From Methanosarcina acetivorans C2A (GTDB taxonomy: Archaea > Halobacteriota > Methanosarcinia > Methanosarcinales > Methanosarcinaceae): a stretch of 64,000 nt of DNA. The DNA is taken from positions 5,580,001 through 5,644,000 of the forward strand of contig NC_003552.1 of the NCBI RefSeq assembly GCF_000007345.1, given 5' to 3'. Of the stretch, positions 1 to 6,612 are shown piece after piece (the stretch's first letter is position 1; every line of letters starts with the position of its first letter). Made by a program: the position numbers and the translations under genes. The notes under the pieces were generated by a model that had not been told where the DNA came from, made no database searches, and was given only the letters and a program-made list of their open reading frames with translations.

Positions 1-386
1 CCCACCACTGCAAGCGATTCCCTTGCAAGCTCCATATCTTCAGCACGGGGAGATGCAAACATGGAAAGATGAGGAGCCCGGCCCATCACCACAAAATCCA
101 GCACGGTAAAAGGAAAAACCACCTCGTTCTGCTGGGGCACATAACCTATATGCCGGGCAATTCCCTTTGCCCCGAGAGAAGTCGTATCCTCTCCCAGAAT
201 GCGAACAGACCCGGTAGAAGGTTTGAGAATCCCTGCAATGCATTTGATCAGTGTGGATTTTCCCGCCCCGTTGGGACCCAGGATGCACATAACCTCACCT
301 TTCTTTAAAGAGAAAGAAACGTTTTCAAAGACCAGCCCGTTTCCATAGGAAAAGGCAAGAGAGTTAACTTCCAGCATCAGTTCCAT
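1..386 (-). CDS. ABC transporter ATP-binding protein (partial, runs off left edge)
   Basis: Only the N-terminal ~128 codons are in the window. The translation begins MELMLEVNSLAFSYG and carries a Walker A motif, GPNGAGKST, followed by a Q-loop region (YVPQQNEVVFPF), which is the usual start of a FecE/BtuD-type ATPase that energises uptake of iron chelates or corrinoids. Two in-frame ATGs are possible: one at 386, overlapping the permease gene by 10 nt, and one at 377, overlapping its stop by 1 nt (TGATG). Either implies translational coupling to the permease. The signature motif and Walker B lie beyond the window. The substrate cannot be read from the ATPase. Confidence 0.9.
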   Translation of the reverse strand, partial: MELMLEVNSLAFSYGNGLVFENVSFSLKKGEVMCILGPNGAGKSTLIKCIAGILKPSTGSVRILGEDTTSLGAKGIARHIGYVPQQNEVVFPFTVLDFVVMGRAPHLSMFASPRAEDMELARESLAVV

Positions 387-1396
387 CCCATGCGCCCCCT
401 TCGAATCAGATATGCAAATAAAGGAGCACCTACAAGGGAAGTGAGGATCCCCAGGGGAATCTCCGTTGCGGCAATGGTCCTTGACAGGTCATCTACAAGC
501 AGCAGAAAAGAGGCACCGATAACCATGCTCATGGGCAGTAGACGGCTGTAGTTCGGACCGACTATCATCCTTGAGATATGAGGTACGACCAGCCCGACCC
601 AGCCAATAACACCGCTGATGCTGACCGCTGCTGAAGTTAAAAGGGTTGCACAAACAATGATAACCAGGCGCATTTTTTCCACGTTCATCCCGAGAGCTTT
701 AGCTTCCTCGTCTCCGAGGGACATGATATTGATCCTCCACCTGAGAAGGAACAACACCAGAGCCCCGACAAACATGGGCAACACTATGTAGAGCAGGTCC
801 CCGTACCTGACAGTAGCAAGGCTTCCCATGAGCCAGAATACTATTGCGGGAAGTTCGTCATAAGGGTCTGCCACATACTTTACCAGGGAGGTAAGCGCCG
901 TGAAAATAGAACTCACGATAATTCCGGAAAGCACAAAGACCAGAGTTCCTGTACCTTTGCTGGCTTTCCCCATACTTATGGCAAAAAACATGGCCAGGAG
1001 TCCGAAAGCAAAAGACATCAACTGTATAAGCAGGTAATTATCCCAGAGCAGTATTGCCAGGCATGCTCCGAAACCCGCACCTGCACCCACTCCCAGAATA
1101 TAGGGAGAGACAAGGGGATTCCTGAAGATCCCCTGAAAAGAAGCTCCGGCTGTGGAAAGTGCAGCCCCTACAAGCAAAGCTGCAAGTATCCTGGGCAGCC
1201 TTACATTGAACAGGACCGTGTGTTGAGTGGAAACCGAAGCAGGGGTGCCAAAAATGAGAGATGAAAAAGCTTTCATACTCTCGTCCACAACCGCCGAGAC
1301 AGGAGTCTGATATCTCCCCACGAAAAGGGAGCCTATTAATAAGACCAGGGGAAGAATGTACACCAGAGTGGTACGGGAATACCTGCATTCAGGCAT
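377..1396 (-). CDS. FecCD/BtuC-family ABC transporter permease
   Basis: A 339-aa polytopic membrane protein with about ten hydrophobic segments, the normal size for the FecCD family. Family hallmarks are the N-terminal VRLPRILAALLVGAALSTAG stretch (about residues 66-85), then FQGIFRNPLVSPYILG, and near the C-terminus VGLVVPHISRMIVGPNY and EIPLGILTSLVGAPLF. It forms the transmembrane channel of an importer for iron chelates, heme or cobalamin-type compounds. It overlaps the upstream radical SAM gene by 8 nt and the downstream ATPase gene, so it belongs to one operon. The substrate is not determined by sequence. Confidence 0.93.
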   Translation of the reverse strand: MPECRYSRTTLVYILPLVLLIGSLFVGRYQTPVSAVVDESMKAFSSLIFGTPASVSTQHTVLFNVRLPRILAALLVGAALSTAGASFQGIFRNPLVSPYILGVGAGAGFGACLAILLWDNYLLIQLMSFAFGLLAMFFAISMGKASKGTGTLVFVLSGIIVSSIFTALTSLVKYVADPYDELPAIVFWLMGSLATVRYGDLLYIVLPMFVGALVLFLLRWRINIMSLGDEEAKALGMNVEKMRLVIIVCATLLTSAAVSISGVIGWVGLVVPHISRMIVGPNYSRLLPMSMVIGASFLLLVDDLSRTIAATEIPLGILTSLVGAPLFAYLIRRGRMGWN

Positions 1397-3155
1397 GAGT
1401 GCACCTCAAAACATGCCAGGTCCCGGAAGTAGGCCTGTGAAAAGACCTGTTAGGTGTGGCTTTCCCATATGGCATGCCGTAAAACTGCCTGTAGAACTCA
1501 TCTGCTTCTTTTTCCAGGTCGATTCCTGAGTTTCCTGGATACAGTTTGTCTGCAATATACATGAGCCCCAGGATCCAGCGGGGGTTTCCGAAATCCCAGG
1601 ATGGAGGGACTTCATAGACCCGCTGCTGTTTTACAGCATCCGTCTCTATGCCATACTGTCGGCAGAGGGTATAGAATTCATCGAGGGGGCGGGAAAGGAA
1701 ACCGGAGATGAAAATTGTGTCCGGGTTATTTTCATTGATAAAAGAAGGAGAAACATTTATACCCGGTTTGCCTTCCTTTTGAAGCTGCTTATTGATGCTC
1801 AAGCCCCCGGAAAATGCCACAAGGTTGTTTTCCATTCTCCCGGCGTTCAGGGCAAAAAGAGGAGAGCCCATGCAGTAATACACCTTATGACCACTGTTTT
1901 CTGCTGCAAGGGACTTAACAAGCTCCAGGCGTGTATGGATAAAGGAAATAAGCTCTTCTCCTTTTTCCGGCATATTTGCCCTTTCCGCAATTAGCCTGAC
2001 AAAGTCAAGATAAGCGTAAGGCTGCTGGATCATATGGTGCACCTTCATAAGGGTCCCGGAATCGGAGATTTCTCTCCAGACATCTATTAACCTGGAATCG
2101 TCCAGTATTCCCAGACATGTAAGTACTCCATGGACCATCCCGAAAGCCCGGCTGATCCGATATCCGCCCATGAAACCTTCCTCATTGAAACGTTCAACGG
2201 CAGTTGTCCCTTTAACAGGCACAGTCTTCCCGCAATCACAGGAATAAGTTATCCAGGGCCTTACTGGTCTCGAACCCATGGGTCCGTAGAACTCCCGTTC
2301 TGCAAGGAGACTGCCGCATTCGGGACAGTAAGTATTCAATAGTTCCGTACCCGGAGAATTGAAAAGATAAACATAATCCACATACTTACGCAGATCAGCG
2401 CACAGGCTCTCCGCCTCTCCTACGGAGGGCTCAAGCTCAATAGGCGCATCCCCGAAGGGGATGAATCTCATGACCTGGACAGGAATGGTTGGAGAAATAT
2501 CGGATACAGCTTCTGCAACCTTTATCACATCGGCTTCATTTCCCCTTGAATAAACAACCGAAGTTTCAACATGCACTCCCATGTCAAAAAGCAGGGAAAT
2601 ATTGCGGAAAACGGGAGCTGATGAAGGGACTCCGCAGCTTATGTAACTTCTGTCAGAATAACCTTTGATTCCGACATTCATGAAATCCACAAGCTGCCCG
2701 AGCTTGTTCAAAGTCTCTTCTGTGAAATAGCAGTTTGTGGAACAGCCCACAAGCAAACCCTTTTCTTTTGCCTGCACTGCAAGGTCCCTGAAGAGATAAT
2801 AATTTGCAGCAGGCTCATTTAAGGTGGAAACCACACCCAGGCAATCCTGCTGCAGAGCTTTTTCCACGACCTGGGAGGGAGTTAAAGTGGTACTGGAAAG
2901 AGATTTTCCTGAAGCCAGCAGACGAGCCACGCACCCGGAACACTGGAAATTACAGCCCGTGCCGAAGACCTGGAGAAACTTACCTGAGGGATAATAATGA
3001 AGCAAGGGGATAGTTTCTATGGAGACTGGATATGCACCAAGGTATCCCATATCAGGGTCCTGGATAATGGTATCGCCGGTACAGACATAAGTCCTGCACC
3101 TGCCCCTGCTGTATTCATCGATTTCGCACCCGAACTCACACACATTGCACTGCAT
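1389..3155 (-). CDS. Radical SAM protein fused to a binding-protein-like C-terminal domain
   Basis: A 588-aa protein starting at an ATG preceded by AGGAGG. Domains seen in order: an N-terminal Cys cluster (Cys3, 6, 10, 20); a radical SAM core with CxxxCxxC at Cys68, 72 and 75; a zinc-ribbon-like section (CPEC at 277-280, CDC near 306-308); then about residues 335-560, which resemble the TroA/BtuF-type binding protein encoded at 3808-4920. Shared landmarks are the long helix after the first lobe (ELVKSLAAE), a VYYxxGxP strand, an NPDTIFISG strand, RVYEVPPSW, then GLMYIADKLYPG and EFYRQFYG. There is no signal peptide, so the binding-like domain should be cytoplasmic. The N-terminal part recalls the PflA/AmmeMemoRadiSam group. 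It sits inside an ABC-uptake operon, so it may chemically process or sense the imported compound (inference). The reaction is unknown. Confidence 0.8.
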   Translation of the reverse strand: MQCNVCEFGCEIDEYSRGRCRTYVCTGDTIIQDPDMGYLGAYPVSIETIPLLHYYPSGKFLQVFGTGCNFQCSGCVARLLASGKSLSSTTLTPSQVVEKALQQDCLGVVSTLNEPAANYYLFRDLAVQAKEKGLLVGCSTNCYFTEETLNKLGQLVDFMNVGIKGYSDRSYISCGVPSSAPVFRNISLLFDMGVHVETSVVYSRGNEADVIKVAEAVSDISPTIPVQVMRFIPFGDAPIELEPSVGEAESLCADLRKYVDYVYLFNSPGTELLNTYCPECGSLLAEREFYGPMGSRPVRPWITYSCDCGKTVPVKGTTAVERFNEEGFMGGYRISRAFGMVHGVLTCLGILDDSRLIDVWREISDSGTLMKVHHMIQQPYAYLDFVRLIAERANMPEKGEELISFIHTRLELVKSLAAENSGHKVYYCMGSPLFALNAGRMENNLVAFSGGLSINKQLQKEGKPGINVSPSFINENNPDTIFISGFLSRPLDEFYTLCRQYGIETDAVKQQRVYEVPPSWDFGNPRWILGLMYIADKLYPGNSGIDLEKEADEFYRQFYGMPYGKATPNRSFHRPTSGTWHVLRCTHA

Positions 3156-3181: not shown

Positions 3182-3805
3182 TTACTTTTCCTTGCTCAGG
3201 ACCACCCAAAAGCCAGAATCGTCCTTAACCACATGACAGGGGATTTCAGTCCGTTCCCCGGCTTCCCGTATAGCCCGAATCGTTTCCGGGCTGAGGCGCT
3301 ATTTAGAAGCAGTATGCCAGTCCGGGTCTATTTCAACCATTTTTTCAGAGATCTGGGCTTTCAACTCTTTTGTGCCAAAACCGCCCCCTATCCACGCCTG
3401 TCCACCCGGAGCAAGGACGCGGGAAATTTCCCTGAAAGCCACAGGCAGGTCTTTCCAGAAAAATACGGAGCCACGGCTTACTATGAGGACTGCGGAATTA
3501 TCCCTGAAGGGAAGCAGGTGGACATCAGCCTGCAAAGGAACAACCTTATCTGAAAGGAAGTGACGGTTAGCTTTGGCTTTTGAAAGCCTGCACATCTCCG
3601 TTGAAAAATCAACCCCATAGACCTGCATATCCGTGAGTTCCGCAACAGCGATCCCCAGGGATGCAATACCGCATCCCAGGTCCAGGCATATGCCCTGTTT
3701 TATCCCGCTTTCTTTGACGATGTGAGCTGCTATTACAGGGTAGATGGGAGCAAAGATGTGTTCGGCAATATAGGGAAAACCCGGAGATTTGCCCTTTTCA
3801 TCCAC
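3182..3805 (-). CDS. Class I SAM-dependent methyltransferase with an in-frame UAG (possible pyrrolysine protein)
   Basis: Translation from GTG at 3805 gives a methyltransferase with motif I LDLGCGIASLGIAVAEL, an acidic motif II (VYGVDFS) and the post-II strand EISRVLAPGGQAWIGGG. An in-frame TAG follows at codon 169 (3301-3299). The same frame then stays open for 38 codons to TAA at 3182-3184, reading SPETIRAIREAG and ending VVKDDSGFWVVLSKEK, which looks like a normal methyltransferase C-terminus. UAG is read as pyrrolysine in Methanosarcina, so the product is either a 207-aa Pyl-containing protein, a mixture, or a 168-aa truncated form. It lies 2 nt after the binding-protein gene and 26 nt before the radical SAM gene when the readthrough is counted, against 143 nt otherwise. 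The substrate is unknown. Confidence 0.8.
3299..3301 (-). other. In-frame UAG codon inside the methyltransferase reading frame
   Basis: The plus strand reads cta here, giving TAG on the coding strand between Lys168 and an Arg codon. Methanosarcina carries the pyl machinery (established knowledge; those genes are not in this window), so this codon may be decoded as pyrrolysine. It could equally be a simple nonsense change. The sequence alone cannot tell them apart. Confidence 0.85.
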
Positions 3806-3807
3806 GT

Positions 3808-4920
3808 TCAGGCCTCTGCTGCAGGGTTCAGTAGCGTATTCAGTTGTTCATCCGTAAGCTCATAGTGGAAGAATTCCAAGTAGAACTCACGGGTCAGCCC
3901 GGAGAGATCCATATCTGCAAAAAGATCCGGATATAGCATCTTTGCAGTCCAGGCAGTCCCTATAATAAGATGGGGGCCCTGTGGCCTGTCAATCCAGCAG
4001 AAGGGATTCTGAGGGGCAAGATACACCCGTTTGTTCCGGACAGCATCCACGCTTTCCCAGAGAGAGTCAGAATATACGGATGCGTAAAACTGCGGATTGG
4101 AGGTGATGATTATCTCAGGGTTCCAGTCCATGACCTGCTCTATTGAAACCTGGGTCATGCCGCTTCCCGGAGTTAGCGGACAGTCGGCAACATTGATACC
4201 CCCACAGATATCAATGACCTGGGAGTGCTGAGAACCGGAGGGATCGGTCATCAGGCCTTTCGGGCCTTCGGCATAGTAAACCCGTACCTTTTCATCTTCG
4301 GGAATATCTTTTACAGTGTTGTTGATCTCGTTGAGGATTGAACCGCGGAACTCAATCAGTTTTTCTGCCTGGGCTTCACAGTCAAGCAGCTTACCCACAT
4401 ATTCGATAGTGGGATCGGATTGTGTCACGAAGATAATAGAATCATCAACGGCAACCACCGGAATGCTGCCAAAACTTTCCTGCCTGCGTTCTATGGCTTC
4501 GTTGATTTGCCCGTCAGTGGTGTATCCTTCAATTACAATGTCAGGGTCCATGCTGATTATAGTTTCATAGTTCCCGGTCTGGGTCCCGAACCAGCCCCCT
4601 ATTACTGGCAGACTTGTGTAATTTTCATCCATAAAAGGTTGAGTAAAATTATTTTTGAAATTCCAGCCTGCAAGTTTGTCCGGTGCAAGCATATAAACGA
4701 GAATAGTAGAAGGAGGAGAAGTGGCTACTACCGAGGAGATCTCAGCCGGCACGGTTAGCTGCCTGTCCAGCATATCGGTGATCTGCACTTTATCCGAATT
4801 CTGGAGCACAGCGCTTGAGTTCGGAACAGCCTGCTGGCCCGTACTTTCCGTACATCCGCAGGAAGCAATAGCCAGAACCAGCAGAGAGAGTATTAACATT
4901 GTACCTATTTTTTCACGCAT
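3808..4920 (-). CDS. ABC transporter substrate-binding lipoprotein (TroA/BtuF/FepB type)
   Basis: About 370 aa. An ATG at 4971 is possible, but the ATG at 4920 is preferred because it gives a proper export signal: MREK, then a hydrophobic stretch ending ASCGCTEST, like a lipobox, followed by a Ser/Gln-rich linker. The mature part has the two-lobed clamp pattern: VVATSPPSTILVYMLAPDKL, then SMDPDIVIEG in lobe 1; a long connecting helix (AEKLIEFRGSILNEI); VYYAEGPKGLMTDPSGSQH, WNPEIIITSN and RVYLAPQNPFCWIDRP in lobe 2. It captures the ligand outside the membrane for the permease and ATPase encoded downstream. The CWIDRP segment resembles binding proteins for iron or tungstate/cobalamin-type ligands, but the ligand is not resolved. 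First gene of the operon. Confidence 0.9.
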   Translation of the reverse strand: MREKIGTMLILSLLVLAIASCGCTESTGQQAVPNSSAVLQNSDKVQITDMLDRQLTVPAEISSVVATSPPSTILVYMLAPDKLAGWNFKNNFTQPFMDENYTSLPVIGGWFGTQTGNYETIISMDPDIVIEGYTTDGQINEAIERRQESFGSIPVVAVDDSIIFVTQSDPTIEYVGKLLDCEAQAEKLIEFRGSILNEINNTVKDIPEDEKVRVYYAEGPKGLMTDPSGSQHSQVIDICGGINVADCPLTPGSGMTQVSIEQVMDWNPEIIITSNPQFYASVYSDSLWESVDAVRNKRVYLAPQNPFCWIDRPQGPHLIIGTAWTAKMLYPDLFADMDLSGLTREFYLEFFHYELTDEQLNTLLNPAAEA

Positions 4921-5397
4921 AGAAATCCCTACAGACTTTTGATGTTTTAATCGATATGTTCGGATAAACATAAAGATATAAAAGTATATTCAGTTGTTAA
5001 ATAGATATACAGTTACTGAGATTGGAAAACGCTAACGGGTCTGTTTTTTGGAAAACTTCTACGTTTTTACGGCTTACAGAGGGTTTTCAGCAAATAACCT
5101 CATTATCATTTTCCAGGGTATTCTCAGCGCAGCATATCAGGAAGACGGTAACCTATTTCCTAGTTATAAAATAAATAGATTTCTATTTCAAAACAATTCG
5201 AATTATTAAGAAAACATATCAAAATCCAGAAAAAAATAAAACTATATAGACTTCTTGTTACCGAATTTTCGGGACTCTAACCGGAGTGACAGGAAAAAAC
5301 GGTCCAATGCTTAAATAATGCTGAAAAAGCGATATGAAAACAGAAAAACACGGTACTGCACCGCATATTACCATTCCTTTAAATCGTCCGGCTTCAT
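4921..5397 (-). promoter_or_regulatory. Upstream region of the ABC operon (477 bp, no gene)
   Basis: AT-rich sequence without a convincing coding frame. On the minus strand, AT-rich hexamers at about 4965-4990 could act as a TATA element for the binding-protein gene. A stretch around 5195-5250 is almost pure A/T. No clear operator was identified. Confidence 0.3.
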
Positions 5398-6486
5398 TCA
5401 ACTCGCTTTTCCCTTTTCAAACTTTTTCCTCTTTTCGAACTCTTTCCTCACATCCACTGACACCCTGTTAAAAGGGCATCCAAAATAAATACAGCGGATG
5501 CACTCATACCGCCATATTGTCAGTAAGAAAAGCAAAATGGAAATGGAGTAAGCCCCGAGCAAGAAAGGCACTTTCAAAAGCCAGGGAAGCGGAAAGAGGA
5601 TAACGATTATGAACCCCAGTGTGGTAATAACGAGATCGAATTTGCCCGGAGGGTACGGCCTGGGCCTGAAATGCTTCGGCCAGCCCCAGTTCATCATGCA
5701 CCTCAAACTCTTTTCTCCTCTGACAAAATAAGGGCAATGAGTACAGAAAAAGCGCTGCTCCAGGATATCGAAATGGAAAAAAACTATGAAAATATAGGCA
5801 AGAAGCCACCCTGTTGAACTGATGCCAATTGCAAGCCCCGCCGAAAAGAGAAAAACAAGGGTCACAAAGTTCCAGTAAAGAAAATCCCTAAACTCATGTC
5901 TTACTCTAAGGGAAGAACACCTGTCTGAATACGATTCCCGAATCCCCTTTCCTGAAAGCTCAAAGTTCCCGGAAAGCCTATCCCCTTTCTCAAACTCCTC
6001 TTTCACGCCTGCAGGCACACGGTTCATAGGGCATTCAAAGTTAAGGCACCGTACGCACTCATACCGCCGGGCGGTCAGAAAAAAAAGTGCCCAGGAAACA
6101 CAATAAGCCCCCAGCAGCAGAGGGTCCCTGACCAGCCAGTAGACCGGAAAGAAAAACATGGGAAGAGCCCCGAGAATAGTCATCGCCTTTTCAAAAGGGC
6201 TGTGGGGACCCGGGCGGGCTTTGAAAATCTTGGGCACTCCCGAAAGCATCATGCATTTTACGCAGCCCCTGCTCCTTATGTAGTGAAGGCAGTGGGTGCA
6301 GGCAAAGCGAAATTCGATTACCAGAAAGAAAAAGAGAGCTATTCCGATGTAAACTGCAACCCACTTGAGGGAATCCCTGGCAATTGCTATGGAGCCAATG
6401 AGGAAAGGGATCATATTGAAAAAGTTCCAGTAAAGGCGGTCTCTGATAGAGTGGTCTGTTTTGAGGGGGATGCCTGGGGATGACAT
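5398..6486 (-). CDS. Internally duplicated Cys-rich integral membrane protein, function unknown
   Basis: About 362 aa from the ATG at 6486; the longer frame to 6558 starts at TTG with a low-complexity Phe-rich tail and is less likely. The protein is two copies of one module of roughly 170 aa. Each copy has RDxLYWNF at the start of a pair of membrane helices, then a CTHC motif, then a second Cys cluster ending in CMM, then KxFxxRPxPxxxF, two more hydrophobic helices, and a RYECxRCxxFxCPxNRV motif followed by a basic or acidic xKEEFEK tail. The Cys motifs sit next to the membrane helices and could hold metal or Fe-S clusters. I do not recognise the family. The gene is monocistronic on the minus strand as far as can be seen. 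Confidence 0.75.
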   Translation of the reverse strand: MSSPGIPLKTDHSIRDRLYWNFFNMIPFLIGSIAIARDSLKWVAVYIGIALFFFLVIEFRFACTHCLHYIRSRGCVKCMMLSGVPKIFKARPGPHSPFEKAMTILGALPMFFFPVYWLVRDPLLLGAYCVSWALFFLTARRYECVRCLNFECPMNRVPAGVKEEFEKGDRLSGNFELSGKGIRESYSDRCSSLRVRHEFRDFLYWNFVTLVFLFSAGLAIGISSTGWLLAYIFIVFFHFDILEQRFFCTHCPYFVRGEKSLRCMMNWGWPKHFRPRPYPPGKFDLVITTLGFIIVILFPLPWLLKVPFLLGAYSISILLFLLTIWRYECIRCIYFGCPFNRVSVDVRKEFEKRKKFEKGKAS

Positions 6487-6612
6487 GCAGGAGTTTTTGG
6501 TAAGGAAAGGTAAAAAGGTTATGATTAAAAAAGCAAAAAAGAAAAACAAGCTTAACAATCGAATAGGGCGATCCCTGAGTTCAGATATTCCGGAACATGG
6601 CCAATAAACATT

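Follow-up and report, generated by a model that had tools for sequence, protein, structure and literature searches.

A radical SAM enzyme joined to half of a class III solute-binding protein within an importer operon of Methanosarcina acetivorans

What might a domain of the type that catches solutes outside the cell be doing at the end of a cytoplasmic radical SAM enzyme? The question is raised by one gene of Methanosarcina acetivorans C2A, located in the window considered here (the whole stretch of 64,000 nucleotides that was analysed, positions 5,580,001 to 5,644,000 of NC_003552.1), where five genes form an operon in the order exported solute-binding protein (SBP), methyltransferase, fusion, FecCD/BtuC-type permease, and ATPase (Table 1). 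The original prediction, made from the letters of the window, had placed the fusion gene, which is on the minus strand, correctly at 1389-3155, and the central idea of that prediction holds, namely that an SBP-type domain is carried on a cytoplasmic radical SAM core and that the gene lies within the operon of the matching importer. The reading favoured here, with a rough probability of 0.45, is that the fusion acts as a cytoplasmic processing enzyme in the uptake of a metal complex, most likely of molybdenum or tungsten, and in Methanosarcina perhaps also of vanadium or iron.

Table 1. Features of the fusion gene and its operon (positions in the window; residues are those of the fusion protein)
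Feature	Position	Strand	Basis
Fusion gene, 588 codons	1389..3155	-	ORF; 58 full-length relatives
Exported class III SBP of the operon	3808..4971	-	PF01497, E 4.1e-21
SAM-dependent methyltransferase (Methyltransf_11), reading frame split	3182..3805	-	
FecCD/BtuC-type permease	377..1396	-	PF01032, E 5.7e-90
ABC ATPase, runs past the window edge; 260 aa in the genome	3..386	-	
Cys-rich N-terminal stretch, residues 1-25	3081..3155	-	C3, C6, C10, C20 do not vary among 58 fusions
Radical SAM core, residues 59-264	2364..2981	-	PF04055; PFL-activase and NifB folds
CxxxCxxC motif, C68-C72-C75	2931..2954	-	Sequence; invariant in 58 fusions
Four-Cys ribbon, residues 277-308 (C277, C280, C306, C308)	2232..2327	-	Invariant in 58 fusions
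Helical stretch in the place of the SBP N-lobe, residues 318-395	1971..2204	-	Only helices in both models
SBP hinge helix, residues 396-419	1899..1970	-	Models and profile comparison
SBP C-lobe, residues 420-565	1461..1898	-	Profile comparison, structure matches, Foldseek

The two halves of the protein

The N-terminal half is a radical SAM enzyme of the PFL-activase/NifB-like kind. PF04055 matches residues 64-214 above its cut-off (E 6.6e-11), and the two marks of the superfamily are present, namely the CxxxCxxC motif of the SAM-binding 4Fe-4S cluster and a partial TIM-barrel fold, for which the nearest solved structures are the PFL-activating enzyme (3c8f, Z 18.2 over 216 residues) and NifB (Z 16.4). 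In addition, residues 1-290 score 80.8 bits against the AmmeMemoRadiSam model TIGR04337, which is under the curated cut-off of 220. The cysteines C3, C6, C10, C20, C68, C72, C75, C174, C277, C280, C306, and C308 are invariant across the 58 full-length fusions.

The C-terminal half is related to class III SBPs, and several comparisons agree on which part of such a protein it represents. PF01497 (Peripla_BP_2) is matched by residues 380-518 at 22.8 bits, below the cut-off of 27.5, and the match is confined to profile positions 93-233 of 235, the family's C-terminal half. A comparison between the profile of this domain and one of the operon SBPs gives a probability of 98.9% (E 3.1e-17, 193 columns), in which fusion residues from about 371 to 570 are aligned with SBP columns 188-392 and nothing is aligned before about residue 371. 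AlphaFold2 was applied both to the whole protein (pLDDT 86.9, pTM 0.86) and to residues 318-588 alone (46 sequences; pLDDT 87.1, pTM 0.87). The best SBP match of the whole model is 4hn9 (Z 21.1 over residues 337-564), with HI1472/MolA (3psa) at Z 18.1; for the domain alone, the corresponding values are Z 20.7 (217 residues, rmsd 2.6) and Z 17.6, and Foldseek matches this model to class III SBPs with an E value of 5e-10.

In both models, only helices and no strand precede the hinge helix, from which it follows that the N-lobe sheet has been lost and that half a clamp remains; as modelled, the fusion keeps only the hinge helix and C-lobe (about residues 371-570) of a class III SBP. Half a clamp would not close on a ligand in the style of a periplasmic receptor, and any ligand would sit between the C-lobe and the remaining protein. 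The fusion thus falls outside class III SBPs proper, since it scores below the PF01497 cut-off and has neither two alpha/beta lobes on a long helix nor an export signal. No signal peptide was found in it by hydropathy, the N-terminal maximum over 15 residues being 1.0 vs 2.7 in the operon SBP, and C3, C6, and C10 stand at the very start of the chain. Mean conservation is 0.59 in the SBP lobe and 0.63 in the radical SAM core, a closeness that argues against the lobe being decaying baggage; a conserved-loop test on the lobe, in which 9 of 146 shifts were equally good, is suggestive at most.

Most of what had been claimed for this domain is borne out by these results. The AlphaFold and Foldseek checks proposed in the original prediction returned the SBP fold, and the lack of a signal peptide stands. 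The statement that the last 230 residues follow the operon SBP strand by strand is right for the hinge helix and C-lobe and wrong for the N-lobe, whose sheet is missing; similarly, the periplasmic-type clamp pictured on the radical SAM core has the SBP fold and is only half a clamp. Chance similarity to SBPs is ruled out by the profile comparison and by hmmsearch against PDB sequences (4hn9, E 2.4e-18). An ordinary SPASM-like extension, which had been named as the competing outcome, is ruled out by the SBP C-lobe fold, and no Pfam or NCBIfam match to a SPASM domain was obtained on the C-terminal part.

Relatives and gene neighbourhoods

A survey for the same fusion and its neighbours, which had been suggested for other archaea, found it across archaeal genera and in bacteria as well: in Methanosarcinales, Methanomicrobiales, Desulfobacterota (16 of 241 genomes), and Firmicutes. 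The five-gene order is shared by Methanosarcina, Methanolobus, and other Methanosarcinaceae, and at least the methyltransferase-fusion pair is kept in Methanomicrobiales and in a Desulfobacula. SBPs aside, no neighbour of the fusion is commoner than the methyltransferase, and a FecBCD-type importer is often nearby. In a tree of the enzyme half, a branch with SH-aLRT support of 99 separates the 58 fusions from five radical SAM-only relatives, and archaeal and bacterial fusions are interleaved, a topology that fits one fusion event with lateral transfer afterwards. Since the fusion is conserved across archaea and bacteria, it serves a real function; a local gene-fusion artefact is ruled out by the 58 full-length members of the one clade. 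In one genome (G158, L070:6690-8427), residues 1-313 and 307-576 are matched separately in two overlapping frames, so the gene there is split or frameshifted.

Some details of the genes themselves deserve mention. The true start of the operon SBP is probably nearer 4920. Its methyltransferase neighbour has an in-frame TAG at 3299-3301 (minus strand), exactly at the Lys of two Methanosarcina relatives, past which the frame stays open to 3182 with conserved sequence. In Methanosarcina, TAG is readable as pyrrolysine, and the codon here either encodes that residue or truncates the protein. In-frame TAG also occurs in some Methanomicrobiales matches to the fusion, and at L073, the single example looked into, the TAG is simply where the gene normally ends. 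Farther along the window, 5398-6558 encodes a 386-residue protein that gave no Pfam or NCBIfam match and apparently is a tandem duplication, with CxxC-type motifs and hydrophobic stretches in both copies.

A second fusion copy in the same genome, 73% identical, lies beside the Fe-only nitrogenase genes (anfH, anfDGK), and such an adjoining second copy is present in all four sampled Methanosarcina genomes with a V/Fe nitrogenase (G000, G309, G330, and G380). Two of these copies (L057:7838-9631 and L059:7864-9765) are divergent to and beside a nifH-type gene of the V/Fe nitrogenase cluster; those at L103 and L104 have the same divergent arrangement beside a nifH-type gene, and the Methanosarcina second copies form a single clade. 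In the stretches covered, none has a methyltransferase neighbour, and three of the four also have no importer. Vanadium or iron is a possible metal for these copies; a strict link to nitrogenase is ruled out, because many carriers of the fusion have no nitrogenase and some diazotrophs have no fusion.

The identity of the imported metal is suggested by several kinds of neighbour. In five Firmicutes fusion operons from about three lineages (L106, L107, L108, L110, and L022), the Molybdenum/Tungsten riboswitch RF01055 precedes the first gene by 55-220 bp, on the same strand; it was absent from the archaeal and Desulfobacterota loci scanned, no riboswitch precedes the fusion operon at L109, and no Rfam family was found for the operon in the window. 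DUF364, a putative heavy-metal chelation family, lies within 8 kb of the fusion in 15 of 74 fusion genomes where 0.57 would be expected (P 3e-18). ModA-type genes do so in 6 of the 74 against 1.27 expected (P 1.6e-3), or 4 of 25 against 0.37 among bacteria alone; the independence of genomes assumed by both P values does not hold, so they overstate the strength. In the paper on its structure, DUF364 has been reported to adjoin genes for iron, tungstate, vanadium, and molybdate transport (PMC2954201). Single cases by the fusion include a TOBE gene with a CobW-type GTPase and ModA (L019) and a MoeA gene (L109). Moreover, the family profile of the operon SBP matches HI1472/MolA over its full length (E 2.4e-40), the two better matches, 4pag and 4ovk, having generic names only, and the operon thus combines a MolA-like SBP with a FecCD-type permease, as a MolBCA-like system does. 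Together, the riboswitch, the MolA-like receptor, ModA, and DUF364 make molybdenum or tungsten the best candidate. Molybdoenzyme genes (PF00384) were set aside as neighbour evidence, with one genome (G925) having them within 5 kb among the matches listed. Downstream of the riboswitch-led operon at L106 are two related large genes (L106:1566-6868), one of which is the gene for the tungsten-type enzyme aldehyde ferredoxin oxidoreductase.

In Desulfobacterota, several loci run permease, ATPase, SBP, TonB receptor, fusion, and methyltransferase, or a variant of this order, and some continue with TonB/ExbB/ExbD-type genes; the ligand presumably crosses the outer membrane there by energised import. 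Some Desulfobacterota (L112:4640-6850, L114:5225-7395, and L084:14217-16396) have an unfused radical SAM gene among importer genes, followed by a gene for a protein of 387-390 residues that gave no Pfam match.

A processing role weighed against its rivals

A scheme may be drawn from this context in which the lobe would bind the imported ligand, the ligand would be a complex of molybdenum or tungsten, and the chemistry would be processing and not synthesis. An exported MolA-type SBP would catch the metal complex outside the cell, and the FecCD-type permease with its ATPase would import it, a TonB receptor passing it through the outer membrane of Gram-negative bacteria. The cytosolic fusion would then bind either that complex or the organic molecule carrying it through the retained C-lobe, which, having no N-lobe to close on, would confer specificity and offer the ligand to the radical SAM part. 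The ligand would be altered by a 5'-deoxyadenosyl radical, and the partner methyltransferase would add a second SAM-dependent change, whereby the metal would be released or made usable. Of the two roles offered in the original prediction, modifying or sensing the imported ligand, modification is indirectly favoured by the conservation of the catalytic cysteines in the 58 sequences and by the methyltransferase as usual neighbour. That prediction named no ligand, for which gene context now indicates metal uptake of the molybdenum/tungsten type. The reading as a whole is supported by the homology of the lobe to the operon SBP and to MolA-like receptors, by the full-length MolA match of the SBP profile, by the recurrence of the SBP, permease, ATPase, and methyltransferase operon in many genera, and by the TonB receptor, ExbB, ExbD, RF01055, DUF364, ModA, and the invariant cysteines. 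The riboswitch-free archaeal and Desulfobacterota loci and the second copies lacking a methyltransferase, and in three of four cases an importer in the stretch covered, count against it.

Synthesis of a carrier, in place of its processing, remains a serious rival, even if it is judged unlikely. In that case the fusion would make a small metallophore or pterin-like carrier together with the methyltransferase and, at loci that have it, DUF364, and the lobe would hold the scaffold or product in place of an imported substrate. The gene-context data serve this explanation equally well, two adjacent SAM enzymes resemble a small pathway, and DUF364 has been proposed to make flavin- or pterin-like chelators (PMC2954201). 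However, a receptor lobe is more natural with an imported ligand, and an unsystematic look at the loci listed brought up no exporter, NRPS, or peptide precursor beside the fusion. It is less probable still that the fusion matures a cofactor, handling a metal or metal-sulfur precursor in a NifB-like manner for the V/Fe cofactor of nitrogenase or for Moco or the tungsten cofactor. NifB and the PFL-activase are indeed the nearest solved folds, Moco is linked with this family of riboswitches, and second copies stand by vnf/anf genes in every Methanosarcina genome sampled that has them; yet many carriers are without nitrogenase, the bacterial fusions are not adjacent to it, and the usual partner is an importer and not a set of cofactor genes. 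A sensor, in which the SBP lobe would detect the imported ligand and switch the enzyme or its partner, is very improbable: the fusion carries neither a DNA-binding domain nor a signalling one, half a clamp would make a poor switch, and the catalytic cysteines are invariant, even though regulators can carry SBP domains and the weak NCBIfam matches of the operon SBP include the transcription regulator Btr.

The processing of an imported metal complex, which remains the preferred reading, points to an undescribed step in the use of imported molybdenum or tungsten by anaerobes. A broader proposal, offered tentatively and with some doubt, is that of a widespread anaerobic pathway in which molybdenum or tungsten (in Methanosarcina also vanadium or iron for the alternative nitrogenases) would be imported as an organic complex and handled in the cytoplasm by the radical SAM enzyme, with the retained half-receptor serving to bind the substrate. 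If true, it would imply that there is a molybdenum or tungsten carrier so far unknown and that a radical SAM enzyme performs a new reaction upon it. Given the riboswitch and the gene context, the chemical form in which anaerobes take up scarce molybdenum, tungsten, or vanadium, and how the metal is freed, becomes a testable question, and Methanosarcina acetivorans is genetically tractable.

Comparison with known systems

Both halves of the fusion belong to known families; no description of a radical SAM-SBP fusion was found in the literature searched, which covered few subscription journals, and the combination, in which a radical SAM enzyme bears half a class III receptor within a molybdenum- or tungsten-linked uptake system, was likewise not found there and appears to be new. 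The neighbourhoods resemble those of DUF364 (PF04016), in which ABC importers stand with genes for iron, tungsten, vanadium, and molybdenum, whereas the fusion is another protein family and a radical SAM partner is not mentioned in that account (PMC2954201). The enzyme half aligns end to end with AmmeMemoRadiSam and PFL-activase-like enzymes, including the N-terminal Cys stretch and the Cys ribbon; unlike them, the fusion has an SBP lobe and sits in an importer operon. Its hinge helix and C-lobe match those of class III SBPs of the MolA/HI1472 (molybdate) group in fold and are significantly similar to them in sequence, but it has neither the N-lobe sheet nor the export signal and is joined to an enzyme. 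In its proposed way of working, the fusion has a parallel in ChuW/HutW, the radical SAM methyltransferase of anaerobic haem release, which acts in the cytoplasm to open a metal ligand imported by TonB and ABC systems; ChuW/HutW has no SBP lobe and acts on haem, whereas the context of the fusion is that of molybdenum and tungsten.
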